From Porphyromonas endodontalis ATCC 35406 (lineage in GTDB: Bacteria > Bacteroidota > Bacteroidia > Bacteroidales > Porphyromonadaceae): a stretch of 64,000 nucleotides of DNA. The stretch is from the NCBI RefSeq assembly GCF_000174815.1, contig NZ_ACNN01000036.1, positions 1-64,000 on the forward strand. The letters are read 5' to 3'. Below are positions 20,766-49,853 of this stretch, in pieces. The translations under genes and the position numbers were made by a program. The notes under the pieces are model-generated. The model saw only the letters and a program-made list of their open reading frames with translations, did no database searches and had not been told where the DNA came from. Each line of letters begins with the position of its first letter. The first letter of the stretch is position 1.

Positions 20766-23700
20766 TCATAAACTCCGAGAAAAATCGTTTGTCATATTAT
20801 CCTCAACCTCTTTGCTTATACTTCTTTCTATTACTCGCATAGGTTGTATTACACTAACCTCATCATCTGGCTGATACTGATATGCTGCAGATAGGTCCTT
20901 CTTATTAAAATTCATCTTCTCTATCTTCTGGACTTTTTCTCCTAGAACATAATAGAACATCGTATATCCGTTACTTTTTAGGTATTCATTTAAAAGGTCT
21001 CTGCGCACAAATAGACCATTAATGAAATTCCCGTGATCAGTATTTAGAGCAGCCACACTTCCGTTAGATTCTTTTATTACCCCTCGAAATTCAGAACAAT
21101 ACAGATTCATTTGTTCCATCATCTCAACACAAGGCATATAAACTGTGCTCAAAAATTCATCATCTCGATCTATGCCTTCCCAGTCTTCTTGTAGTTGTGC
21201 TTCATAGGACAACTGCATATCACAAGGGCAATCATACGGACGAGACCACACCTCGTGTTCAACTGAAGATTTATACACATCAGCCCAAGGGTATTCATTC
21301 CACAGAAATTCTGTTACTCCATGATGCTCAGGCATCCATCGCCCATAGAAGTCCTTATCCCTTGCCCATTTTGCAAACTTATCAGCATCTTTTTGTTTAA
21401 CGAATCCGGTATTACTAAATAAGAAGGTTTCTTTGTTCTGATCTTTAGTCCTATCATACCCTATTAGCATAACAAACTCTGCCCCTTCTTTATGTTTGAC
21501 GATGCCCCTGAAGTCTGGTAGATACTCATTTTTGCTAATCCACTCTTCATCATCTTTCCCCTTTATCAATTGGTTCTCTATTCCTATTAGTCCAGCCTTT
21601 GGTTCATATTTCGATTCTATATCAAGCGTTGGATCGAAACGGGAAACTTCTGCACTGCTCCATGGATATGGATGAGGTGTAAAATCATTTGTCTCAGGTT
21701 CTTCGCCGTAGTAGTATTGTATTTTTGTTGTTTGATAAAGATCCATTAGGTGTGCATTTACCCTATACCAAGCTAGCCACTGAAATTTCTTACCTATTCT
21801 TTCCTGGTCGTTGTGTACTCTATAGGGTGAATATTTTCCATTATCCAAATATCCTAACTTATCGTTCCAACCGAATATATGCAAAATATAATAAGCCATT
21901 TCTGCTTTAATATCGTCAAGAGGTACCCCTCGAAAGTTCCCATCTTCTGTTGGCAGGAAATAATCCGTGCTCCGATTTCTCATATTGGTCCCAATGATAT
22001 AACGATTGAAATCCTCAAAACTAAATAGGGAGTTATACATCATAATAGAGCCGTTTTGTGATCCGAAAAAATACTTGTCGATATCTCCGTTTTTGGAAAT
22101 CTCCTCCAGATCAATTTGTTGAGGTTTGAAGGGTGTCTTAATATTTTTCCAATAGTTACATGTTTCGTCAATATAGTAAGCTCGCTCTATGATTTTCAGA
22201 GTCCACTGGCGGACTATCAAGTCCTGCGGAACGGAATCTTCTTTCTCGTAATAGCAATGATAAATATGTTTGGCTATGGAAGTCGTTAATATCTTATCTC
22301 TAGAAGGTAAAACAACTCCGTAAATAGCACAGAAGAGTCCTCCTGTTACATATGGATCATTGACTTCTTCAAACAAACTCACAAGCCACAAGATCAGAGT
22401 CTGATGTGTGCTTAAAATCTTTCTTAACTTTCTGATGATAATTGAACGGAACTTGGGATGCGAAGAACTTAGCATCCACGTAATGCGTATTAGATTCTTC
22501 CGTTTATCATCACTTTCTTCTAATGTCTGGCCTTGTTCCAGCAGAATCTCTTCGATATAATAATCGTCATACATCTCATACATTTGATTTACATAACGAG
22601 TCCATATTAAATCTCTGCTACCAATTTTAGGATGTTTTTTCAGCTTATTGTGTATCTCCAAGACCTCATTCAAAGGAACCTCTGTACATTGTTTAAGAAG
22701 GATCAGGGGATTAATCTTATCATTCTCAAGTCTAAGAAGAATGGATGTTAGTCCCCTATTAGGGATATCCGATTCCATCAGAAATTCATAATAGAGTTCA
22801 TACAATGGGCCATCTCTTTGTAGCATTTTTTCATCACAAACATTCAGATTTTTATGATACCAACAATCAAACAATGCTTTCACAGTTGTCCTAAATTTTT
22901 CTGATGGTATATCCGTATTTCGTTCCAAGAACCTTCTCTCTCGGTCTATCCAACGTAACAGCCCCTTTACATCCATATTGGAACGCAACAATTCTCCCGC
23001 TTTATAGTAGTCGCCCAAGTTTTCATATTCAAACATAACGGCTGGAACTTCCGTATTCGAGTGGTCTTCCAAAAGCAAATTTGCCGTCAAACATGCATGT
23101 AGTAAATCTTGATTCCAGAGCCTATAAGGGGCCATTCTCTGACCATATTGGCGAGCTTTTTGTCTAGAGATTGGATTGAAATGCCCATAGTAGACGCTAT
23201 GGTTTGCAAGTTTCGACATATAGCGATCTGCAATATGAAGTTCGGGATCCTCATTTATAAAATCTGTTACGATTTGGTTTTTCTTAGCCACATAGCGTTT
23301 ATACAACACGTGCTTGTTAATATGCTGTTTTTCTTCTTCTGTCAGTGAATGAAAAGTCTCACAGAATATCTTTAGGAATAGAGGATTCTTGAAAGCTTCT
23401 ATTCTTTGGGAGTTGCAGTTTGGGTCAATACCATATTTATTGAAATAGGCAGAAATGGCTCTGTCTTTGTCCGCAAAACCATCGATTGTTTGTACGTGCC
23501 ACTTCCCGCTTTCGGAGAGATCATTTACTTCTTTGTCAAAAGGAGTACGGATCGAAATGACAAGACGGAAATGGTCATGTTTTTCCAATTCCGTTCGTAA
23601 TGCTCCTAAATGATTGTTCCAATAGCTACACCCTAATCCTTCATTAATAGCATCTATTACTACTACTGTATATCTGCCTCGTTTCTTTAATTCTTCATTA

Positions 23701-24929
23701 AAATCCGTAAAACTCATCTTTTGGCAAATAGTGTCCTTAATTAAGTTGATCGCAGGTTGATTGACTTTGAAGTTTGTCCCAAAGAAAAGGTAAATATTAG
23801 CTTTTCCCTGTTTCTTCAGAGCATAATCACATAGACTGTGTGTCTTTCCTGAACCGGCTTTCCCGATCAGGCACGAGTTCTTTTTATGGGAGTATTTTAT
23901 TCGTTCAAAATCTTCATCATTCAGTTGATTGACTTTTGGATATATATCCAATCCTCTGCTCCTTCTGTCAAAACCACTGAAAGGGTTCTCCCTTAGGTAC
24001 TCATGGCAATGTCTCAGCAAGCCGCAGTCGTTAGCAATAAGTATATCTACATTTAGGGTCTGCTGTATCTTTAGCTTTTTCTGAATCATTTCCCTTTTTT
24101 TCTCAGGAAGCTGACATACAAACCTCGCTAAATCAATTGTCTTCTTTGTAACCTCGTCTAATTGTGATTTGTCAGAGATATAATCAAGGAGGTTTTCCAG
24201 ATCCTCATTCTCTTGATGTAACTCGGGTGTATAGCGATCATGAATAGTTGCAATGGCATCTTTACATAGCTGTAGACTACGACCTATCCCTATTGTGGTA
24301 ATATCATCTTCCGCCCAGTTCGTGTCATAGCTAATACCTTTAGCCTTAAGATGTTCTTTTACGGTAGAAATAGAAAGGTAACTCAGCATTTCATTAATTT
24401 GAAGTACAATGATACCATTTACCCGACCTGATATACTGACCACAGGAGATCCAGATAGCCCATCATAATTATGTAGGGTACATTTATCATCACGTGTTAG
24501 TGCTCGATCGTTCCATTCCCCATCTTTTATTTCAATACTATTTCTTACTTCCAAGTCCACCAAATTACGTCCCATGGCTAATTCCTGTGGATAGCCATAT
24601 ATATGGAGGGGCATGTTTTTTACATACTCATCACACAGTAGAGATAGTGATTCTGTGGAATGATAGCTCTCTTCCGGGGCTATAGTCAGCAATGCTAAGT
24701 CGATTTTTTTTTCTGTCGTTGATAACTCTTCTCCCCGACACAACAAAGTCTGTCCAGGCAGATAAATATGGGTAGGAGCAGATGCTACTGTACTTTGAAA
24801 ATGTGCTTTTACTACATGGCGTGCTGTCAATAACTGTGTTTCGCTAATAAAGAAAGCCGTTCCCTGCTCAGATTCGCAGCGTACGGGAACTATTATAGTT
24901 TCTAATGTCTTAGCATTCAAATAACTCAT
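20766..24929 (-). CDS. Trypsin-like protease fused to STAND NTPase (Avs-like antiphage sensor)
   Basis: 1387 residues. Residues 1-200 are a trypsin-fold protease with H38 (TARHVV), D77 (IDLAL) and S159 in GLSGSP. Residues 345-600 hold a STAND P-loop NTPase: Walker A GKAGSGKT (K362) and Walker B VVVIDAINEG (D426), the form found in Avs-type STAND proteins. The remaining 780 residues are largely helical with no motif I recognise and would be the sensor part. The known logic of STAND defence proteins is that the C-terminal region binds an invader protein, the NTPase oligomerises and the N-terminal effector is switched on; here the effector would be a protease. Its start ATG overlaps the end of the MBL gene by 20 bases. 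The base composition is visibly more AT-rich than its neighbours, suggesting horizontal transfer. The domains are secure; the defence role is inferred. Confidence 0.8.
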   Translation of the reverse strand: MSYLNAKTLETIIVPVRCESEQGTAFFISETQLLTARHVVKAHFQSTVASAPTHIYLPGQTLLCRGEELSTTEKKIDLALLTIAPEESYHSTESLSLLCDEYVKNMPLHIYGYPQELAMGRNLVDLEVRNSIEIKDGEWNDRALTRDDKCTLHNYDGLSGSPVVSISGRVNGIIVLQINEMLSYLSISTVKEHLKAKGISYDTNWAEDDITTIGIGRSLQLCKDAIATIHDRYTPELHQENEDLENLLDYISDKSQLDEVTKKTIDLARFVCQLPEKKREMIQKKLKIQQTLNVDILIANDCGLLRHCHEYLRENPFSGFDRRSRGLDIYPKVNQLNDEDFERIKYSHKKNSCLIGKAGSGKTHSLCDYALKKQGKANIYLFFGTNFKVNQPAINLIKDTICQKMSFTDFNEELKKRGRYTVVVIDAINEGLGCSYWNNHLGALRTELEKHDHFRLVISIRTPFDKEVNDLSESGKWHVQTIDGFADKDRAISAYFNKYGIDPNCNSQRIEAFKNPLFLKIFCETFHSLTEEEKQHINKHVLYKRYVAKKNQIVTDFINEDPELHIADRYMSKLANHSVYYGHFNPISRQKARQYGQRMAPYRLWNQDLLHACLTANLLLEDHSNTEVPAVMFEYENLGDYYKAGELLRSNMDVKGLLRWIDRERRFLERNTDIPSEKFRTTVKALFDCWYHKNLNVCDEKMLQRDGPLYELYYEFLMESDIPNRGLTSILLRLENDKINPLILLKQCTEVPLNEVLEIHNKLKKHPKIGSRDLIWTRYVNQMYEMYDDYYIEEILLEQGQTLEESDDKRKNLIRITWMLSSSHPKFRSIIIRKLRKILSTHQTLILWLVSLFEEVNDPYVTGGLFCAIYGVVLPSRDKILTTSIAKHIYHCYYEKEDSVPQDLIVRQWTLKIIERAYYIDETCNYWKNIKTPFKPQQIDLEEISKNGDIDKYFFGSQNGSIMMYNSLFSFEDFNRYIIGTNMRNRSTDYFLPTEDGNFRGVPLDDIKAEMAYYILHIFGWNDKLGYLDNGKYSPYRVHNDQERIGKKFQWLAWYRVNAHLMDLYQTTKIQYYYGEEPETNDFTPHPYPWSSAEVSRFDPTLDIESKYEPKAGLIGIENQLIKGKDDEEWISKNEYLPDFRGIVKHKEGAEFVMLIGYDRTKDQNKETFLFSNTGFVKQKDADKFAKWARDKDFYGRWMPEHHGVTEFLWNEYPWADVYKSSVEHEVWSRPYDCPCDMQLSYEAQLQEDWEGIDRDDEFLSTVYMPCVEMMEQMNLYCSEFRGVIKESNGSVAALNTDHGNFINGLFVRRDLLNEYLKSNGYTMFYYVLGEKVQKIEKMNFNKKDLSAAYQYQPDDEVSVIQPMRVIERSISKEVEDNMTNDFSRSL

Positions 24930-26103
24930 ACTCTTGTTCCGAAATAATAGTTACTACACCTAAGTCCTGCTTTACTTCTTTCTCTAGTTCGTCGATTTTT
25001 TTTGTGATATCGCACTGGTGACTGAAAACGATTTTTTTTACCTGATTATCCTTATGAGTTTCTGCTATTCGTCCGAAAGTACTCCATGTTGGATATTTTT
25101 CCCCTTTCCCTCCTGAAATGAAATACAGATGAGAGTTGATGCGCTCAAATAAAGCTCTGCTGTTGTTACCATTGCTTCCATGATGGGAAATCTTGATGGC
25201 GTCGCACAATAATGGTCGTGGTTCATTCTTATACTTGCAATCAATACTTTGTTCCAAAGTACTGGCAACAGCATCACCTAGCATAGCTATCTTGTGACCT
25301 CCACATTCCAGTATAAAAGCTATGGATGAATAGTTGGTGTCGGAATCGTCAATTGATTCTTCTTTGGCCTGTTCTCTTACATATGCCGCATCATAAACAG
25401 GACTGGTTCTCGCAGAAATAAGTTTCTCTCCAAATTTTTCTTGATGGGCATCTACTAACCTTATTAGTAGCTCTTGAAGTTCTTCTCCATTTTCTATGCT
25501 TTTAGTCCATTCGTGCATAAAGAACTTATCAAAAGCATCTTTGAATTTCTTGTCAATCGCTTTTAATGCATCTTGTGTGGGTGACAAGAGCACTATCTTC
25601 CCAAAATCGCCAGGAATGTCAAAATCCTTCATCTCGCAGGTGATTTTCTCAAATTCCCAAACTTTTCTCAGATTTTCATTTTCAAGGATGGTCCTAGCAA
25701 GTGTTTTTCCCTGTGAGGCACTAATTTCTCTATAGTTGATTGCATCAAACTCTACGGGTAGTACCTTTTGGATCTGCTTGATAATTGCTTTTTGCTGTTC
25801 ATCTAACTCTATCGTTTCCCCTCCATTTCCCCGTTTATAACTATTATACCATATTTTGTCTATTGTCAACCCTTCGTGTTCTTTTAGCATAGTGGACATC
25901 CCTTGTATATGGTCGCTGTCTATATGGGTCGCTATAAGTAGGTCAATATGGTTTTGAAGTGTATCTTGTAAGTACTCTTTCAAGGGGGTTGTGTATTTCC
26001 CACAATCCACCATAATAACGTATTGCTTCCCATCTTCCTTTACCAAACGGATCACAATACAATCGCCTATACCAACATCAAATGATCGAAGAAAACATTT
26101 CAT
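24910..26103 (-). CDS. ComEC-like metallo-beta-lactamase-fold hydrolase of the defence cassette
   Basis: 397 residues from ATG 26103. It begins with the typical ComEC-type MBL strand KCFLRSFDVGIGDC, followed by MVDCG, the metal-binding motif HIDSDH (H60, D62, D64, H65), MLGDA and SHHGSNGNNS. It has no membrane segments, so it is the soluble hydrolase type found beside trypsin-like proteases and STAND NTPases in AVAST type 1-like systems. The frame is open to a TTG at 26154, with another ATG at 26121. A TACCTTCG box at 26132-26139 on this strand would be the -7 promoter element, which favours the ATG at 26103. It is the first gene of the pair and is translationally coupled to the protease-STAND gene. 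Substrate unknown. Confidence 0.8.
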   Translation of the reverse strand: MKCFLRSFDVGIGDCIVIRLVKEDGKQYVIMVDCGKYTTPLKEYLQDTLQNHIDLLIATHIDSDHIQGMSTMLKEHEGLTIDKIWYNSYKRGNGGETIELDEQQKAIIKQIQKVLPVEFDAINYREISASQGKTLARTILENENLRKVWEFEKITCEMKDFDIPGDFGKIVLLSPTQDALKAIDKKFKDAFDKFFMHEWTKSIENGEELQELLIRLVDAHQEKFGEKLISARTSPVYDAAYVREQAKEESIDDSDTNYSSIAFILECGGHKIAMLGDAVASTLEQSIDCKYKNEPRPLLCDAIKISHHGSNGNNSRALFERINSHLYFISGGKGEKYPTWSTFGRIAETHKDNQVKKIVFSHQCDITKKIDELEKEVKQDLGVVTIISEQEYELFEC

Positions 26104-26154
26104 CCTTTTTGTAGATAACATTACGTTTTTACGAAGGTAGCTACATATTGTCAA

Positions 26155-26375: not shown

Positions 26376-26443
26376 GGGGAGTTTAGAGCAAAAAATCCCC
26401 ATTGTTAGGGATTGCGAACAGTGTTCATCTATTTTACCTTTGC
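26376..26443 (+). promoter_or_regulatory. Promoter/operator of the TetR-RND operon (copy A)
   Basis: A promoter with TTG (26412-26414), 20 bases, and TACCTTTG (26435-26442). A perfect palindrome GAACAGTGTTC (26416-26426) sits inside the spacer, and a second inverted repeat AATCCCC (26394-26400) / AGGGATT (26407-26413) overlaps the -33 region. The whole 68-base block matches 45324-45391 at 55 of 68 positions without gaps. A palindrome between the two promoter boxes is the usual layout for a TetR operator. Confidence 0.8.
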
Positions 26444-26486: not shown

Positions 26487-27167
26487 ATGAGAAAAGAGAA
26501 AGGCGAGAGGGAGGAACCCCTACAAGCTATGGTCCCTAAGAAGAGGAGCGAAAAGCAACGAACGGGAGATCGCATGCGAGAGAAAATCTTACAAGTCGCG
26601 CGTGCTGAGTTTCTAGAGTATGGATTTAGGGATGCTTCGCTGCGGCGAATCGCCGTGAAAACGAGCATTTCCGTGAGCAATATCTACAATCATTACAAAA
26701 GTAAAGACGACCTTTTTAGAGCAGTACTGCAACCCCTATTAGAATCTTTTACTGAGATGCTTCGAGAGCATAATAGCGAGAAGAGTATGGAGCTGTATGT
26801 GGAGCAAACGGAGGAATTCCAACGGGCGATGATAAAGGAATTTCTCGCCCTGATGCTTCGTTTCCGCACTGAGTTAAAACTCCTTCTCCTTGGTTCGGGA
26901 GGTTCGTCGTTAGAGGGTTTCAAAGAAGAGATTATCCAACAGCAATCAGAGGTCGGGGTAGAGTACATACACAAGCTCAGGATAAAGTACCCCAAAGCGA
27001 ATAGAGCGATTTCGCCTCTTTTCATCCGCATTTGCTCGCATTGGTGGCTCATTTTCATGCTGGAGTTGGTCACCAACGAAAGTTTGACAAAGAAGGATAT
27101 AGAGCAGGCTTTGAGTGAGTATGTGTGCTTTGGTACAGCCGGTTGGAAAAGCCTGATGGGGATATAA
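26487..27167 (+). CDS. TetR/AcrR-family transcriptional regulator
   Basis: 226 residues. The N-terminal TetR DNA-binding domain covers about residues 27-80, with REKILQVARAEFLEYGFRDA leading into the helix-turn-helix (about 51-71) and the usual NIYNHYKSKDDLF. The C-terminal ligand domain is not family-specific by eye. The first 20 residues are a basic extension; a later Met at residue 15 is an alternative start. It is the first gene of the operon and lies 44 bases after a promoter with a central palindrome, so autoregulation is likely. The same operator in front of the ABC exporter genes at 45436 suggests it controls those too. Confidence 0.9.
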   Translation: MRKEKGEREEPLQAMVPKKRSEKQRTGDRMREKILQVARAEFLEYGFRDASLRRIAVKTSISVSNIYNHYKSKDDLFRAVLQPLLESFTEMLREHNSEKSMELYVEQTEEFQRAMIKEFLALMLRFRTELKLLLLGSGGSSLEGFKEEIIQQQSEVGVEYIHKLRIKYPKANRAISPLFIRICSHWWLIFMLELVTNESLTKKDIEQALSEYVCFGTAGWKSLMGI

Positions 27168-27183
27168 ATAGAACGCAAATAAG

Positions 27184-29520
27184 ATGATAAACGTAGAACG
27201 AATCAATCGATGGTTCTTCCGTGTGGGAGACCGAATTATCCGCCATCGCTGGTGGGTATTAGCCGCCTTTGTGCTGTTGCTGGCAGTCGGAGCCAATGGG
27301 ATGCGAATGCTCAATATCAAGACTTCGTGGGAGGATTATTTCCTGGAAGATGACCCGATGCTCCTACAAACAAAGGAGTTTAAGGAGGTGTTTGGTAATG
27401 ATAATTACGCTGCGGTACTCCTTGAGTGTGACAATATATTCACCAAAGAAAAGTTAGAACTTATCCGCCGGCTCTCTAATGAGATGATGGATAGTATGAC
27501 CTATGCCGATAAGATCACCTCTCTTACAGACATTGAGTTTATGGAGGGGAACGAAGAGGGAATGACGATTGAGCAGATTGTGCCCGAGGAGATCCCTAGT
27601 GATCCTGCCGGGTTGGCGGAGATACGGCGTAGAGCATTCCTCAAACCCAACATTGCCAATCGTCTTGTATCAAAGGATGGTCGCCTCTCGTGGATTTTGC
27701 TGAAACTGAGCCCATTCCCGGAGACAGGGGGAGCAGAGATGCTTACGGGCAAAGAGTTATATCACATCATAACCAAGCCTGAGTATGCTGCTCTTCATCC
27801 AAAGGGTACCGGGATGCCCTACCTTTCCGAACGAAAAGTGGAATGGGTGAATCACGAACTGCCCCTAGTGATGGGGATTGCGATCCTCTTTGCCATCTTT
27901 GTTTTGGCGTTGGCTACTCGTTCGCTTCGAGGGGTGGTTGTACCGGTAATAACAGCTTTCTCTGCCATTATTATGGCGTATGGTCTTACGGGTTACCTAC
28001 GTTTGAGTATCGATAGTGGTATGATGCTTGTGCCGATGCTTTTGGCTTTTGCCGTCTCGGTGGCGTACAATATACATATACACTCTTACTTCCGAAGGCA
28101 GATGCGTATTCATGGCAAACGCAAGCAAGCGGCTATTGAGACCATAAGCGAGACCGGGTGGCCCACCCTCTTTAGTGCGCTTACCACCCTTGTAGCTCTC
28201 CTTTCATTTCTTGCCATCCCTATGGTGCCCATGCACTTTGTGGGTATTGCCACAGCGTCAAGTGTTTTCTTCGCCTTCTTTGTTACACTAATGGTGATGC
28301 CGACCCTCTTGAGTTTTGGTAAAGATAAACAACCCAAGGAGGGGGCTTGCAAAGAGGGGATGCATTGGTTAGATCGTAAGCTAGAGCTGTTTGGCAGCAA
28401 TGTATTGCGGCACGAGAGATTGGTTTGGATTGTCTTCTTTGTTTTTACCGCAGGTATGATATATGGTTTTACCAAAATAGAACCTGCCTTTGATGTGGAG
28501 CGCACTCAGGGACGACGCATCCAGTACGTTCGGGACATTCTCGAAGTGGCAGAGAGCGAGTTAGGGTCCATTTATTCATATGATATAATGATTGAGTTCC
28601 CGGAAGAGGGGCAAGCCAAGACGCCACAGGCACTGCAAGCTCTCGACTCTCTTGCTCACCTTGCGGATAGTTATGTCCTTACCAAGCGTACTACTTCGAT
28701 TCTCAATATTCTCAAAGACCTTAATCAGACGCTTCATGCGGATAATCCCGCCTACTATCGTTTGCCTGACACGTCAGACGAGATTGCACAGCAGCTACTC
28801 CTCTATGAGAATGCGGGAGGGAGCGAAGCCGAGAGTTGGATAGACTATGAGTACCGATTCTTGCGCTTGCGAGTAGAGATGGCAAACTACAATTCTGCAG
28901 AGATTGAGCGTGAAATGGCGGAATTAGTCTCTGTGGCAGGCAATTTGCTGCCCAACGCCAAGGTAACTCCTGTGGGTACAATGCCGCAGTTCTCGGTGAT
29001 GATGCAGTATGTAGTACGTGGGCAAATCGTCTCTTTCTTGCTCTCGCTACTTATCATTGGCGTGCTGATGATGGTGGTGTTTGGTAGCGTGCGTGTCGGC
29101 CTTATTGGCTTGATCCCCAATATAATGCCAGCTATTGTGGTGGGGGGCTTGATGGGATTCCTCGATTATCCCCTTGATATGATGACGGCGACTATTATGC
29201 CGATGATATTAGGGCTTGCCGTAGACGATACCATCCATTTTATCAATCATGGGCATTTGGAGTTTGACCGCCAGCGCAATTACCGATCCTCGATACTCAA
29301 AACTTTTCACATTGTAGGTACTCCTATTGTTCTTACGAGCGTGATTATTTCTAGTAACTTTGCTGCCTATTGTATCTCCGAAGGTATGATGTTCGTCCAT
29401 ATGGGGATCTTGTCGGTTGCCGGGATGCTAACAGCTCTTCTTGCGGACTTATGTATTACGCCACTCCTTTTCCGCCGCTTCAAAATCTTTGGCAAAGAGG
29501 AGGAGAAAGAGGCTCAGTAA
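27184..29520 (+). CDS. RND-superfamily (MMPL-type) exporter
   Basis: 778 residues. It has the duplicated RND layout: one N-terminal helix ([18 protein letters not shown]), a periplasmic domain of about 180 residues, a block of helices (about 220-380), then the repeat with one helix near 425-445, a second periplasmic domain and a final block of helices (about 615-770). Motifs such as [13 protein letters not shown] in the second block, with paired Asp residues, are typical of proton-coupled RND/MMPL proteins including predicted lipid exporters. It lacks the length and partner genes of the HAE1 drug pumps. It follows the TetR gene by 16 bases and is followed by a LolA-like protein and an outer-membrane protein, which suggests transport of a lipid or lipoprotein-like cargo across the periplasm. 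Confidence 0.85.
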
Positions 29521-29566: not shown

Positions 29567-30349
29567 ATGAAAAGAATAGCAATACTAGGCATTGCCGCGA
29601 TGCTTGCCGTAAGTAGTGCCTTGGCACAAACCGGGCGTGAGATAGCCCAAAAGGTGAAAGATAGACCCGATGGAGATACACGTCAGTCGGAGATGACCAT
29701 GAAGCTGATCAATAAGCGTGGTAGTGTGAGAGAACGCAAACTTATCTCCTACTCCATTGACGTAGGAAAGGGGAAGAAAGACCGTAAAACGATGATGTTC
29801 TTCCTTTACCCGGGAGATGTAAAAGGGACGGGGTTCCTTACTTGGGATTACGACGAAATAGGGAAAGACGACGACAAGTGGCTCTACCTCCCTGCCATGA
29901 AGAAAACCCGACGCATCAGTGGATCTTCTGCAAAAAAAGACTATTTCATGGGCAGCGACTTTACCTACGACGATATGGGGAGCCGCAATGTAGATGAGGA
30001 TACGCACAAATATCTAGGAGAGGAAACAATTGATGGGCACAAGTGCTGGAAGCTGGAGTCTACCTCCAAAGATAGTCGGGATGTCTTTAGTAAGAAAGTC
30101 GCTTGGATTCGCCAAGATTGCTATATTCCAGTGGTAGTGGAGTACTATGATCGAACAGGGCGACTGCATCGTAAACTTGAGATCTCCGATATTCACAAAA
30201 TAGATGGCTTTTGGACTCCCCAAAAAATGCAGATGACCAACGTACAAACAGAGCACAAAACCATCCTAGAGTTTAAGAATAGTAAGTTTAACACCCCCCT
30301 AGCCGAAGCCAAGTTTAGTGTTACTTCGCTAGAGAAAGGATCCTTATGA
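29567..30349 (+). CDS. LolA-like outer-membrane lipoprotein-sorting family protein
   Basis: 260 residues from ATG 29567, giving a signal peptide ([20 protein letters not shown]). The frame is open upstream inside the RND gene, but that part has no signal. The mature domain, with [38 protein letters not shown] and [18 protein letters not shown], is the LolA-like fold often encoded beside MMPL/RND exporters. It is probably a periplasmic shuttle for a hydrophobic cargo of that exporter. Its last four bases overlap the next gene (ATGA). Confidence 0.85.
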
Positions 30350-31620
30350 TACAATTTGCTAGAATGCGCTGTCTCCTCCTATGGGGGGCAGCGTTGCTAA
30401 CCTCCTTACCTCTCATGGGGCAAAATGAAGAGGGTACTTCTACCCCCTTTGACCTCAAAGGGTTTGTTGATACGTACCACGCTGTACGCAGTCACTCGCC
30501 TTTCCAATTTATGAGTTCGCGCACTCGTGTGCGAGGAGAGTTTGAGAAACACTTTGGGCAGTCGCTTGTGGGGGTCTCTATCAATGCTACTTATAACGCT
30601 GTTCGCCCTGCTGAGACGGGGATTCGTTTGCGAGAGGCTTTCTTCGAGCATCGGGGGGAGCACTGGGGGATACGCGCCGGACGACAGTTCGTTATTTGGG
30701 GTGCAGCAGATGGCGTGCGCATTACCGACCTCGTCTCTCCGTTGGATCTGACGGAGTTCTTAGCACAAGATTATGACGATGTGCGTATGCCGGTAAACGC
30801 CCTACGTCTATCGCTTTTCAATGAGACATTTAAGGCAGAGGGCATTTTCGTTCCTACTTTCGAGGGGTATAAACTCCCCACAGATCGCTCCAATCCGTGG
30901 AATATTTTTGCTCAAACTAAGGAGCATCCTAACCTTAATATTGTGTGGAACGACAAGGGGAGTACACCTGCGCTTAAACTTGCCAATATGGAGTATGGTC
31001 TGCGCTTGAGTGCGACGTTACCGGGGGTAGACTTCTCGGTGGCAGCCCTACATACATGGAATAAAATGCCCGTTATCACGCGGCAATTCCTATCCCCTAC
31101 GGAGGTGCAGGTGGTGCCGCGTTATTATCGTATGGGCTTTGTGGGAGGCGATGTGGCTGTGCCTCTTGGGCAATTTGTCCTGCGTGGGGAAGCCGCATTC
31201 AATATTAATAAGCACTTTACATACAAAGGAGTAGGAGAGCAGCGTGGCTTCAATACCCTCAATTGGCTAACGGGTGTTGATTGGTACGGCCCCAATGATT
31301 GGCTCGCTTCGGCGCAATTTTCTATGGAGAATATCTTTCGGTATAGCGATCTTATTGCCCAAAAGCGCAATACCTCTCTCTTGACTTTTCAGCTCTCGAA
31401 AAAACTATTGGGAGCTACACTTGAGCTTTCGGACTTTACCTATATCGACCTGACGGGTAAGGGCTGGTTTAGTCGCTTTACGGCAGGCTATGCTCTCAGC
31501 GATCAAGTCCGTCTTATCGTTGGTTACGATTGGTTGGGAGCTTCGGAAGGGCACGACAGTCTCTTTGCTAACTACAAGGATAATTCGGAGTTTTGGTTCA
31601 AGGCTCGTTATAGTTTTTGA
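30346..31620 (+). CDS. Outer-membrane beta-barrel protein of the RND operon (DUF1302-like)
   Basis: 424 residues. A signal peptide ends near LPLMGQ, then a series of amphipathic strands follows, with [11 protein letters not shown] at the start, [21 protein letters not shown] in the middle and a C-terminal strand ending in Phe (FWFKARYSF), the usual mark of an outer-membrane barrel. The middle motif resembles DUF1302-type proteins found with RND/LolA-like genes. It completes a TetR-RND-LolA-like-OMP module that could move cargo from inner to outer membrane. A terminator follows at 31664. Confidence 0.75.
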
Positions 31621-45323: not shown

Positions 45324-45391
45324 AGGGAGTTTGTAGTAAAAAATCCCCAATAGTGGGGATTGTGAACACTGTTCATCTGCTCTACCTTTGC
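45324..45391 (+). promoter_or_regulatory. Promoter/operator of the ABC-methyltransferase operon (copy B)
   Basis: TTG (45360-45362), 20 bases, TACCTTTG (45383-45390), with the palindrome GAACACTGTTC (45364-45374) in the spacer and AATCCCC (45342-45348) / GGGGATT (45355-45361) over the -33 area. It matches the block before the TetR gene (26376-26443) at 55 of 68 positions without gaps, and every promoter and palindrome arm base is kept. It ends 45 bases before the first ABC gene. Confidence 0.8.
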
Positions 45392-45435: not shown

Positions 45436-47187
45436 ATGAATGTGTTACAGCGATTGGGGATCTATATGGGCAACCGTAAACCCCTGCTTCCCATTAGTTT
45501 AGTACTGTCGGGCTTGACAGGGCTCGTCTCCCTTCTTCCCTTTATCTTCGTTTGGCTTATTGTGCATCAGTTGCTTGTAGAGCCCGAGGGTGTGGAGCCG
45601 GATAGCGTTTTCTCTCTTGCATGGTGGGCTTTCGGGTCTGCCGTATTGGCTATTTTGCTTAGCTTTCTCTCTCTTATCTTCTCGCACGTTGCGGCATTTC
45701 GGGTTGAGTGCTCCATGCGGCGCTCTGCTTTGTCGCGGTTGATGCGGATGCCTCTGGGCTATTTCGATACCCACACCACGGGGCGTATACGCAAGATTAT
45801 CGACGAAGACTCGTCTCAAACACATACCTTTATTGCCCATCTTTTGCCCGATCTGATGGGAAGTATTCTCTCGCCCATTGGGGTGCTTGTTTTGCTCTTT
45901 GTTGTGGATTGGCACTTAGGGCTGGCATGTATGATCCCTATTTTGATGGCTTTTGCCACCCTCGGGGTCATGATGAACCCAAGGCAACAGAGCTTCCAAA
46001 GGGAGTATCTTGATGCTCAAGAGCGGATGAGTACCGAAGCGGTAGAGTATGTGCGAGGTGTGCCTGTTGTCAAGGTTTTTCAGCAGACCGTTTTCTCCTT
46101 CAAACGTTTCTATGATAGTATTATTTGCTATCGCGATCTTGTGACCAAGTGTACCCTTCGTTGGCAGTACCCCATGTCGTTTTATACCGCAGTGATCAAT
46201 ACGATTGCCTTCTTCTTAATCCCGATGGCGATAATCTTGATCCACAATACTGGCAACTATGGGGGTGTGATAGCCGATATGATACTATTCCTCCTTATTA
46301 CGCCGGTTATTTCCGGCAATATCATGAAGATAATGTTTCTACAGCAGGGTATGTTTATGGCAGGGGAGGCGATCAACCGCATGGAGGCTCTTACGGAGGA
46401 TGCCCCTCTCCCCGAAGCTGAGCACCCACAACCAATAACCTCTTATAGTATTGCCTTCGAGGGCGTTACCTTTTCCTATTCCGGTGCCAATACCCCTGCC
46501 GTGCAGGAGCTCTCTTTTACCCTGCCTGAAGGGAAAACGTATGCTTTGGTAGGACCCTCGGGAGGGGGTAAGAGTACAATTGCTCGCCTTATCCCTCGCT
46601 TCTATGATGTGGCGCAGGGGAGTATCTCTATTGGGGGCGTGGATGTACGCCAAGTGGCTACGCACGACCTTATGAATGCCGTATCTTTTGTTTTCCAAAA
46701 TGGGAAACTCTTTCACTCTTCGTTGCGCCACAATGTGACGTATGGTTCCCCTAATGCTACCGAAGAACAGATCCGGCGTGCCCTCAATCTTGCCCAGTGT
46801 AGGGAGATTATAGAGCGTCTCCCCCAGGGGTTGGATACTCGGATTGGTGTAGAGGGTACCTATCTCTCCGGGGGAGAGCAACAACGTATTATCCTTGCTC
46901 GTGCCCTTCTCAAAGATGCTCCCATCGTGGTTCTAGATGAAGCTACTGCTTTTGCCGACCCCGAAAACGAGCAATTGATTCGCCGTGCTCTGGCTGAGCT
47001 AACAAAGGGGAAGACTGTACTTCTCATAGCCCATCGCCTAACCAATGTGGTGGATGCCGATGCTATTTTGGTGGTTGACGGGGGGCGCCTTGTGCAGCAG
47101 GGTACGCACCAAGCTCTCGTGGAACAGGAGGGGTTGTACCGCTCAATGTGGGAAGAATATAACCGCTCTATCAACTGGACCATCTAA
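45436..47187 (+). CDS. ABC exporter, first half-transporter
   Basis: 583 residues: six membrane helices (about residues 15-320) fused to an ATPase domain. Walker A GPSGGGKST, Q-loop FVFQN, signature LSGGEQQR, Walker B IVVLDEATAF, H-loop IAHR. The residue after Walker B is Ala-Thr-Ala-Phe, so the catalytic Glu is present. It pairs with the next half-transporter, 22 bases downstream, giving a heterodimeric exporter similar in layout to siderophore or drug exporters such as YbtP/YbtQ or IrtA/IrtB. It is controlled by the copy B promoter shared with the TetR operon. Confidence 0.9.
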   Translation: MNVLQRLGIYMGNRKPLLPISLVLSGLTGLVSLLPFIFVWLIVHQLLVEPEGVEPDSVFSLAWWAFGSAVLAILLSFLSLIFSHVAAFRVECSMRRSALSRLMRMPLGYFDTHTTGRIRKIIDEDSSQTHTFIAHLLPDLMGSILSPIGVLVLLFVVDWHLGLACMIPILMAFATLGVMMNPRQQSFQREYLDAQERMSTEAVEYVRGVPVVKVFQQTVFSFKRFYDSIICYRDLVTKCTLRWQYPMSFYTAVINTIAFFLIPMAIILIHNTGNYGGVIADMILFLLITPVISGNIMKIMFLQQGMFMAGEAINRMEALTEDAPLPEAEHPQPITSYSIAFEGVTFSYSGANTPAVQELSFTLPEGKTYALVGPSGGGKSTIARLIPRFYDVAQGSISIGGVDVRQVATHDLMNAVSFVFQNGKLFHSSLRHNVTYGSPNATEEQIRRALNLAQCREIIERLPQGLDTRIGVEGTYLSGGEQQRIILARALLKDAPIVVLDEATAFADPENEQLIRRALAELTKGKTVLLIAHRLTNVVDADAILVVDGGRLVQQGTHQALVEQEGLYRSMWEEYNRSINWTI

Positions 47188-47209
47188 CCTTTTAATCCTC
47201 AAAATCATT

Positions 47210-48937
47210 ATGATCCACCTCATACAAAATCGTTTTGCCCTCACCCGTGATGGAGCTATCTCCTTTGTTAAGGCTGTTGTGTGGTCGTTGTTGCTCAACC
47301 TAGCCTTTATGCTCCCCGCAATTTATCTCTTTCTCTACCTTACGGATTACCTTGATCCGCTAATACACCCCGGGGCTACTCCCTCCCATGGATTGGGCTA
47401 CTATATCCTCATAGGTCTGCTTTGCTTCCTTGTAATCTTTGTTATTGCTTTTAGGCAGTATGCTTCTACCTATACAAAGATTTATACCGAGAGTGCCGAG
47501 CGTCGTATAGCCCTGGCCGAGAAACTTCGCAAGTTGCCTTTGGCGTTCTTTGGTGAGCGTAATCTCTCGGATCTTACCTCTACTATTATGGCAGATTGCT
47601 CCGAGATAGAGCACGTTTTCTCGCACGCTGTACCTCAGCTCTTCGCTGCAGCCGGGAGTATCCTCCTCATTACCATAGGATTGTTTTTCTACAATTGGCA
47701 ACTCTCTTTGGCTCTCTTTTGGGTCGTGCCTCTGGCTCTGCTTGTACTGATCCTCTCTAAGCGAGCTATGGAGCGTGAACTCAAAAGGGTACATTGTACG
47801 AACCTCTCGATCGCGCAGCAGATACAAGAGGGGTTGGAGAGTGTGCAGGAGATTAAAGCGTATAACGGCGAGGAGGAGTACCTCAAGACCTTCGATGAGA
47901 CAATTACAACCTACGAACGACAGTTGATGCGAGGCGAAACTTTGGCTGGGAGTACTCTCAATCTTTCCCATATACTCCTCAAATTGGGCATTGCATCCGT
48001 TATCTTGGTTGGGGCTTATCTACTGGCAGATGGTACAATTCCCATGCTTACCTATCTTATCTTTTTAATTGTTTCAGCCTCTATCTACAACCCTATTATG
48101 GAGGTGATGAATAGCTTTGCTGCTCTTCTCTACTTGGATGTGCGTATCAATCGTTTCCGCGAAATGGATCAAATGCCTGTCCAGACGGGAGTGCAAGAGT
48201 GCCACCCCAAGGGGTTTGATATAGCCTTTGATGGGGTCGAATTTTCCTACGAAACCGGCAAACAGGTGCTTCGGGGCGTCTCTTTTGTGGCTCGCCAAGG
48301 TGAGGTTACGGCTCTTGTTGGCCCCTCGGGTGGCGGTAAGAGCACCACGGCCAAGTTGGCTGCTCGCTTTTGGGATGTAGACCAAGGGCGCATTACCCTA
48401 GGCGGAGAAGACATTAGCAAAATAGACCCTGAGACTCTGTTGCAATACTACTCTGTGGTGTTCCAAGATGTGCTTCTATTCAATGCCTCTATTGCCGATA
48501 ATATCCGCGTCGGGCGTAAAGATGCTTCCGACGAAGAGGTACGCCGCGTGGCGCGATTGGCGCAGTGCGAAGAGTTTATACAGCGTATGCCCCAAGGCTA
48601 CGATACGCAGATAGGAGAAAATGGCGAAACCCTCTCGGGTGGAGAGCGTCAGCGCATCTCTATTGCACGTGCTTTGCTAAAAGATGCTCCCATCGTACTG
48701 CTGGACGAGGCAACTGCCAGTCTCGACGTAGAGAACGAATCGAAGATACAGACGGCGATCTCTGCCCTCATCAAGGATAAAACAGTGCTGATTATTGCCC
48801 ATCGTATGCGCACGGTGGCTCATGCTCATAAGATAGTGGTAATAAAGGAGGGGCAGGTAGTGGAGATGGGGGCTCCGGAGGAACTCCTGGCACAGGGAGG
48901 GGAGTTCGCGCGTATGGTAGCTGCTCAGAATGCCTGA
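47210..48937 (+). CDS. ABC exporter, second half-transporter
   Basis: 575 residues from ATG 47210; the longer frame from 47045 overlaps the first ABC gene and is not credible. Six membrane helices precede the ATPase domain with Walker A GPSGGGKST, Q-loop VVFQD, signature LSGGERQR, Walker B IVLLDEATAS and H-loop IAHR. All ATPase motifs are intact, so both halves of the pair look catalytically competent. Partner of the preceding gene in the same operon. Confidence 0.9.
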   Translation: MIHLIQNRFALTRDGAISFVKAVVWSLLLNLAFMLPAIYLFLYLTDYLDPLIHPGATPSHGLGYYILIGLLCFLVIFVIAFRQYASTYTKIYTESAERRIALAEKLRKLPLAFFGERNLSDLTSTIMADCSEIEHVFSHAVPQLFAAAGSILLITIGLFFYNWQLSLALFWVVPLALLVLILSKRAMERELKRVHCTNLSIAQQIQEGLESVQEIKAYNGEEEYLKTFDETITTYERQLMRGETLAGSTLNLSHILLKLGIASVILVGAYLLADGTIPMLTYLIFLIVSASIYNPIMEVMNSFAALLYLDVRINRFREMDQMPVQTGVQECHPKGFDIAFDGVEFSYETGKQVLRGVSFVARQGEVTALVGPSGGGKSTTAKLAARFWDVDQGRITLGGEDISKIDPETLLQYYSVVFQDVLLFNASIADNIRVGRKDASDEEVRRVARLAQCEEFIQRMPQGYDTQIGENGETLSGGERQRISIARALLKDAPIVLLDEATASLDVENESKIQTAISALIKDKTVLIIAHRMRTVAHAHKIVVIKEGQVVEMGAPEELLAQGGEFARMVAAQNA

Positions 48938-49031
48938 TTTCTAGCCCTAGAACTAAAAAGATACTGGGAGCCTCTTGCCGGCCGGTGAGCAAGAGGTTAA
49001 GCTCAGACCGAACGAGATACAAATAAAGTAT

Positions 49032-49853
49032 ATGAATAGTGCGATACAAAACAACCTAACCAAGGTGCCCGAGACGATGCTTATACCGCTTCGTGCTCGC
49101 TACAACGAAACCAAGCGACCCCACGGTATTATTCGAGATCCTAAGTCGGTGGAGATATTAGATCGTATTGAACCCTTTTTTGAGGGTAGGCGAGAGGTCT
49201 CAATTCTCTCGCAAATGGGAGTGGCCGTGCGTACGGATATTCTGGATCGCCTCACCCTGCAATTCCTAGAAAAGCACCCCAATGGATTCGTGGTTAACCT
49301 CGGTTGTGGATTGGATACTCGCTTTCACCGCTTGGATAATGGCAAGGTTACTTGGTTTGATTTGGATCTGCCCGAGGGTATAGACTTGCGCAGAAACTTC
49401 TTTGAAGAGAGTGAGCGATTCCATTTTGTAGCCGCCTCAATACTCGACCCCTCTTGGCTCGATCTCCTCCCCAAAGATGCCCCAAAACTCTTTATAGCTG
49501 AGGGGCTTTTGATGTATTTTACGGAGGAAGAGGTGCACTCTCTCCTCGCTACCTTGGCAGAGCGTTGCCCTCGGTCGGAATTTATTTTTGAGGCCATGTC
49601 TCCCCGTATGGCACGTCATACCGAGCAGCATAGTGATATGAAAGGGTACGAGGCGCAGTTCAAATGGGGTATCAAGTCGGGGCGAGATTTGCTCAATTGG
49701 GGCATAAAACTTCGCTTTGAGCAGGAGTACTTCTACAATATCCACCTCAAGAAAATGCCTTGGTATGTAGCTCTCTTTTATCAGACTGTGGCTCGCCGTG
49801 TGATGAAGATTGTACACCTAACATTGGGAGAAGAGCAGTTGAGAGTCGCCTGA
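49032..49853 (+). CDS. TcmP-like (LCMT-type) O-methyltransferase
   Basis: 273 residues from ATG 49032. The frame extends to a TTG at 48975, but the usual family start MNSAIQNNLTKVPETML fits the ATG. The SAM-binding motif is VVNLGCGLDTRF, followed by FDLDLPEGIDLRR and AEGLLMYF, typical of the leucine carboxyl methyltransferase/TcmP family, which methylates small carboxyl or hydroxyl compounds. It lies about 95 bases after the ABC exporter genes, with no terminator between, so it may modify the exported compound or be part of the same stress response. Confidence 0.8.
   Translation: MNSAIQNNLTKVPETMLIPLRARYNETKRPHGIIRDPKSVEILDRIEPFFEGRREVSILSQMGVAVRTDILDRLTLQFLEKHPNGFVVNLGCGLDTRFHRLDNGKVTWFDLDLPEGIDLRRNFFEESERFHFVAASILDPSWLDLLPKDAPKLFIAEGLLMYFTEEEVHSLLATLAERCPRSEFIFEAMSPRMARHTEQHSDMKGYEAQFKWGIKSGRDLLNWGIKLRFEQEYFYNIHLKKMPWYVALFYQTVARRVMKIVHLTLGEEQLRVA

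Follow-up and report, generated by a model that had tools for sequence, protein, structure and literature searches.

Why does the promoter in front of a tetR-transporter operon of Porphyromonas endodontalis ATCC 35406 recur, 19 kb away, in front of a pair of ABC transporter genes? We analyzed a 64,000-nucleotide stretch of this genome (positions 1 to 64,000 of contig NZ_ACNN01000036.1, forward strand; hereafter the window), in which a 68-base block lies at 26376-26443 (copy A), before the gene for a TetR-family regulator, and again at 45324-45391 (copy B), before the ABC pair. A preliminary description of the window had placed one operator in this block and proposed that the TetR protein encoded next to copy A represses both operons. 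Our analysis of the sequences points to a fuller answer: the shared block is probably a two-input promoter, combining an iron/heme box with a TetR operator, which would co-regulate the two operon halves.

Aligned without gaps, copies A and B are identical at 55 of 68 positions, a count that our recount reproduced, and the parts previously listed as conserved (the -33 TTG, the 20-base spacing, the -7 element, the palindrome, and AATCCCC with its inverted partner) are all present in both copies. TTG-N20-TACCTTTG spans 26412-26442 in copy A and 45360-45390 in copy B; a sigma-70 promoter scan at copy B returned no site. The next best ungapped 68-mer match within the window reaches 34/68 for copy A and 36/68 for copy B. 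When the P. endodontalis genome (2,064,508 bp in 37 contigs, 98% complete) was searched with 168 bp around copy A, copies A and B were the only matches (E 9.7e-14, 80% over 79 bp). With just these two copies in the genome, the block is not a dispersed repeat, the alternative that the preliminary description had raised. Inside the recognizable elements the copies agree at 32 of 34 positions, and outside them at 23 of 34 (binomial P ~9e-7, uncorrected for the selection of blocks by eye). This agreement outside the elements makes the copies look related by descent, beyond merely having motifs in common. Upstream, the likeness extends only some 10 bp past the block.

A genome scan for the palindrome found GAACANTGTTC at copies A and B only, in both cases between -33 and -7. 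The 11-mer of copy B, reverse-complemented, is that of copy A; the central G and C are therefore one base pair read from opposite strands. The suggestion that this difference reflects selection on the arms only did not hold up, since the central base is C or G in all ten sites compared (two of which are identical duplicates in genome G005). Seven genomes of the genus encode a TetR with 42% or more identity to that of copy A, and in six of these the tetR promoter contains the palindrome. It stands directly behind the -33 TTG with intact arms in G000, G004, G005 (both operon copies), G007 and G009, and with one changed base in G017; in G005 and G007 the -7 element of these promoters is an imperfect TTCCTTTG. 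In 11 genomes of the genus the closest TetR shares 34-39% identity, and none of these genomes contains TGAACANNGTTCA anywhere. Among the 22 genomes searched (genus n = 26), TGAACANNGTTCA was found at eight places, seven in the TetR-transporter system and one elsewhere, a count that leaves out copy A, which begins with C. Across 38 genomes of the family, TTGNGAACANNGTTCA was found at 12 places, ten in the TetR-transporter system and two elsewhere. In two genomes of another genus (G027 and G033), the palindrome directly precedes the gene for a TetR 48-50% identical, followed by an MMPL gene; having been found with the palindrome itself, they confirm the arrangement and are not an unbiased count. 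From these comparisons, the palindrome as the predicted operator of the adjoining TetR, with copy B as its only other genomic site, is well supported.

Several observations weigh against this assignment. The reversed control of GAACANTGTTC also occurs at two places in the 2.06-Mb genome, and with one mismatch allowed the palindrome occurs twice in the window where 1.8 are expected, which is chance level. Because the reversed control is equally frequent, the rarity of the bare palindrome proves nothing, and the weight falls on its position and conservation. Counted as rows on both strands of the 22 genomes, TGAACANNGTTCA gave 14 and its reversed control 10, and the reversed control of TTGNGAACANNGTTCA gave six places, leaving a small excess. 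G027 and G033 were picked by the palindrome, and the ten other genomes of their genus lay outside the TetR search. In G011 (TetR 43% identical) there is a weak site only, downstream of -7, with a score reached by 9 of 200 shuffles. More distant TetRs have the SNIYNY helix in common with the P. endodontalis protein, yet the palindrome is absent from their promoters. This last point would fit a palindrome bound by another regulator, with the TetR linked to it by genomic neighborhood only. We think such a regulator quite unlikely, since the palindrome is nearly confined to the TetR-transporter system in both genome sets and is missing from all 11 genus genomes that have no close TetR; a regulator encoded elsewhere should also act on other targets. 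A further scan of genome contigs with TTGNGAACANTGTTCA returned at least 118 stretches from many phyla where about 1,900 chance matches were estimated, and was set aside as uninformative.

The inverted repeat that flanks the palindrome appears to be a separate operator, which the preliminary description had missed. AATCCCC with its inverted partner is a variant form of the box AATACC-N8-GGTATTG, in which the TTG serves as the -33 element; since the repeat would thus form a box of its own overlapping -33, the shared block appears to carry two inputs. Six places in the P. endodontalis genome fit the looser form AATNCC-N8-GGNATTG, and none fits its reversed control. Besides copies A and B they comprise two intergenic sites that look like promoters and two sites within genes. 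Within the family, AATACC-N8-GGTATTG was matched 45 times, in 32 of the 38 genomes, and its reversed control never. All 45 matches were inspected; two of them are one near-palindromic place in G020. A -7-like element stands at promoter distance in 26 of the 45. The first genes behind these 26 promoters encode HmuY (9), FeoAB (4), a TonB receptor (4), flavodoxin (2), TetR (3) or other proteins (4), so that 22 precede a gene of one of the five named kinds; for four HmuY, one TonB receptor, one flavodoxin and the three TetRs the assignment comes from likeness or coordinates instead of a Pfam scan of the protein itself. An MMPL neighbor was seen for only one of the three TetRs, that of G027, and that of G002 stands alone. 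The four other genes comprise two whose products are related to each other and have a Por secretion tail scoring below threshold, one for a Big_2 protein, and a 407-amino-acid gene of P. endodontalis without a Pfam match, which on contig C9 (L185, L295) is preceded by the exact box and followed by an HmuY gene. The 19 matches with no recognized -7 include sites at a DUF4876 gene (G005), at TetR genes (G032, G033), and, five times, inside long open reading frames (ORFs).

The association with iron/heme genes was also seen when promoters were selected by the encoded protein instead of by motif, in counts that are not independent, many of the genomes being related. Of 41 HmuY genes at 30 loci, 28 promoters were usable, and 12 have the box within two mismatches, against 0.4% of shuffles. 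For tetR promoters (G005 counted twice, G009 left out), the box is present within two mismatches in 12/18 and within three in 17/18, against 0.5% and 5% of shuffles, respectively. Flavodoxin promoters have it within three mismatches in 11 of 23 cases (4% of shuffles). Among ABC promoters, examined at 17 of 30 loci, the box is found at 9 of the 11 whose operon is separate from tetR (the exceptions being G002 and G011) and at none of the six whose operon is fused to it. GGNATTG is not a general promoter feature, as just 6 of 20 ATTG-N20-TANNTTTG sites have it. Judged by eye, the box looks unlike the consensus of the E. coli Fur box. On the other side of the balance, 16 of the 28 HmuY promoters are without a good box, as are those of flavodoxin in G005 and G007.

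The terminator scan flagged 45361-45342 on the minus strand (copy B), and the AATCCCC/GGGGATT repeat with its nearby A-tract might accordingly be taken for an intrinsic terminator of minus-strand transcripts instead of an operator. We judge this very improbable: related boxes have the AT-richer arms AATACC/GGTATT, keep a fixed distance to -7 and mostly precede iron/heme genes. In the roughly 1 kb on the right-hand side of each copy, moreover, the minus-strand ORFs of at least 100 amino acids all run antisense to known genes of the plus strand, namely ABC1, or tetR and the beginning of the MMPL gene. Two side observations concern the box itself. Among the 19 matches just mentioned as lacking a -7, AATACCTACTTCTAGGTATTG is retained in five related genomes, with no recognized -7 on that strand (L241, L258, L259, L260, L272). 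At C33:89909 of P. endodontalis (L188), a box with a -7-like element has no clear ORF directly behind it, and an Rfam search at this box found no family.

The features of both operons are collected in the table. The TetR_N profile scored 43.2 bits on the copy-A TetR (Pfam cut-off 24), and the genome holds a single match to this protein. The true start of ABC2 is probably further downstream than listed, because its homologues are shorter.

Table. Coordinates in the window of the genes of the two operons and of the promoter elements before them.
Feature	Coordinates	Strand	Remark
Iron-type box, copy A	26394..26414	+	AATCCC-N8-GGGATTG; last three bases are the -33 TTG (26412-26414)
Palindrome, copy A	26415..26427	+	CGAACAGTGTTCA; proposed TetR operator
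-7 element, copy A	26435..26442	+	TACCTTTG; 20 bases past the -33 TTG
TetR-family regulator	26487..27167	+	226 amino acids; Pfam TetR_N
MMPL (RND) transporter	27184..29520	+	
LolA-like protein	29660..30349	+	Listed ORF from 29441; start at 29660 is our choice
DUF1302 protein	30346..31620	+	
Iron-type box, copy B	45342..45362	+	AATCCC-N8-GGGATTG; last three bases are the -33 TTG
Palindrome, copy B	45363..45375	+	TGAACACTGTTCA; proposed second TetR operator
-7 element, copy B	45383..45390	+	TACCTTTG
ABC transporter, first subunit (ABC1)	45436..47187	+	
ABC transporter, second subunit (ABC2)	47045..48937	+	Listed ORF
LCM-type methyltransferase	48975..49853	+	After the ABC pair; putative operon member

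Gene order in relatives bears on why the ABC pair should share a promoter with tetR. Four genomes of the same genus (G004, G005, G007, G009) have a single run TetR-MMPL-LolA-DUF1302-ABC1-ABC2; in G003 and G015 the order is TetR-MMPL-ABC1-ABC2-LolA-DUF1302, and in P. endodontalis, G017 and G011 the ABC pair lies away from tetR. Because four relatives keep one run, common control of TetR and ABC genes is the expected state. The earlier proposal that TetR represses both operons is well supported in its operator part, for which the palindrome tracking TetR and the six-gene run in four relatives both speak; it was incomplete in that the flanking repeat is likely a box of its own, and repression itself is a prediction.

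Copies A and B are alike at 56 of 70 positions, against 43/70 and 41/70 for their counterparts in G017, the nearest relative by tyrosyl-tRNA synthetase (91%). Since the copies resemble each other more than they resemble these counterparts, the promoter was probably copied or homogenized in the P. endodontalis lineage. The P. endodontalis TetR is 51% identical to those of G004 and G005 and 43% to that of G017, and this closer likeness makes interspecies transfer possible. Counting against the two-operator reading, the G017 ABC promoter has a box with three mismatches and no palindrome, which leaves P. endodontalis as the one genome with the second operator. At the other split loci (G017, G011, G002) no operator in common was convincing, the best having two mismatches, a score reached by 9/200 (G011) and 12/200 (G002) shuffles. 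The palindrome at the ABC promoter may have been either lost in G017 or gained in P. endodontalis. The missing G017 palindrome, the closeness of A to B, and their agreement outside the elements would all suit a copy B palindrome that is a passenger of recent copying of promoter A, so that TetR control of the ABC pair would have no selected function. We judge this unlikely, given that the elements agree better than the remainder of the block and that four relatives have tetR and the ABC pair together in a single run.

Several further loci are described here in their own right. G005 has TetR and ABC genes in two copies (1.05 and 2.14 Mb; L007, L028), which do not differ in palindrome or TetR. 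In G009, tetR is split between two reading frames, being either broken or affected by a sequencing error, and its promoter palindrome is retained (L029, L200). G001, G023, G024 and G025 have an extra ABC pair elsewhere, with the iron-type box alone in its promoter (L043, L044, L046, L047), and another ABC pair near tetR. Upstream of the P. endodontalis tetR, the minus strand at 20766-26154 encodes a defence-like pair: a 1387-amino-acid protein with a trypsin-like N-terminus, whose top PADLOC match is Avs2, and a 414-amino-acid metallo-β-lactamase (MBL)-fold protein with LmuA and Avs1a as top matches.

In the two-input promoter that we favor, AAT(A/C)CC-N8-GG(T/G)ATTG over the -33 TTG would belong to an iron/heme regulon, and a sensor bound there would cover -33. 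The likeliest binder would be a Fur-family orthologue of the PgFur/Har type. TGAACA-(C/G)-TGTTCA occupies the -33/-7 spacer, so that TetR covering the palindrome would exclude RNA polymerase; TetR would act on its own promoter and, in trans, on copy B. Full expression would then need both regulators off, and a promoter copy with both operators would keep the ABC pair, 19 kb off, co-regulated with the other half of the system. We give about even odds to the further proposal that AATACC-N8-GGTATTG over -33 is the operator of a family-wide iron/heme regulator (an unmapped PgFur/Har site or that of another sensor), copied together with the TetR operator as a two-input module that rejoined a split membrane-transport operon to its regulator.

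Our search of the literature, in the portions accessible for each paper, found no report of the AATACC-N8-GGTATTG box, and the box is not described in the accessible parts of PMC4805248, PMC3764172, PMC12040651, PMC9723704 and PMC11967795; the same scope applies to the papers cited below. The P. gingivalis PG1175-PG1181 genes, the PG1181 TetR operon, are like the P. endodontalis system by product list and order, a likeness not drawn from sequence comparison. They form one run, in contrast to P. endodontalis, where the ABC pair stands 19 kb off behind a promoter of its own. PG1175-PG1181 were up 13.4-136.2-fold in low iron (PMC10434189), PG1178-1180 were up in an hmuS mutant (PMC13227078), and PG1181 was up in a PG_0686 mutant (PMC10101095). 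In strains altered in PG0627, HmuY, the flavodoxin PG1858, PG1019, the TetR PG1181 and PG1179 shift together, 7- to 21-fold (PMC12119571), a gene set close to our box list, although the G005 flavodoxin promoter is without a box. Gel-shift work showed binding of PgFur to the hmu promoter, and PgFur did not bind the E. coli box (PMC6613475); the parallel in our data is the box, with one mismatch, at the hmuY promoters of G005 and G007. Because neither PMC6613475 nor PMC4222909, in the parts accessible, defines a DNA site for PgFur, we infer the link between PgFur and the box.

The box offers a concrete, testable site and a gene list for the Fur-like regulator of heme-dependent P. gingivalis, for which those sources give no defined DNA site. 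The palindrome, likewise, is a candidate operator for a PG1181-type TetR, a regulator that turns up repeatedly in expression studies of iron and stress; the accessible literature yielded no description of an operator for PG1181. A 2016 study by Boutrin is reportedly devoted to this TetR.

TetR-family proteins of the QacR, AcrR and CmeR class are local repressors of membrane pumps. Matches of the copy-A TetR among PDB sequences include AefR, CmeR and QacR, and the likeness is concentrated in the region that binds DNA. Its ligand cannot be deduced, since no NCBIfam model scores above cut-off. The P. endodontalis system resembles this class in having a TetR_N domain encoded beside a transporter gene and a palindrome inside its own promoter. 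It would provide a case of an operator pair accompanying genes when an operon splits and, unlike the QacR, AcrR and CmeR class, its promoter has a second box and a remote operon has the same pair.
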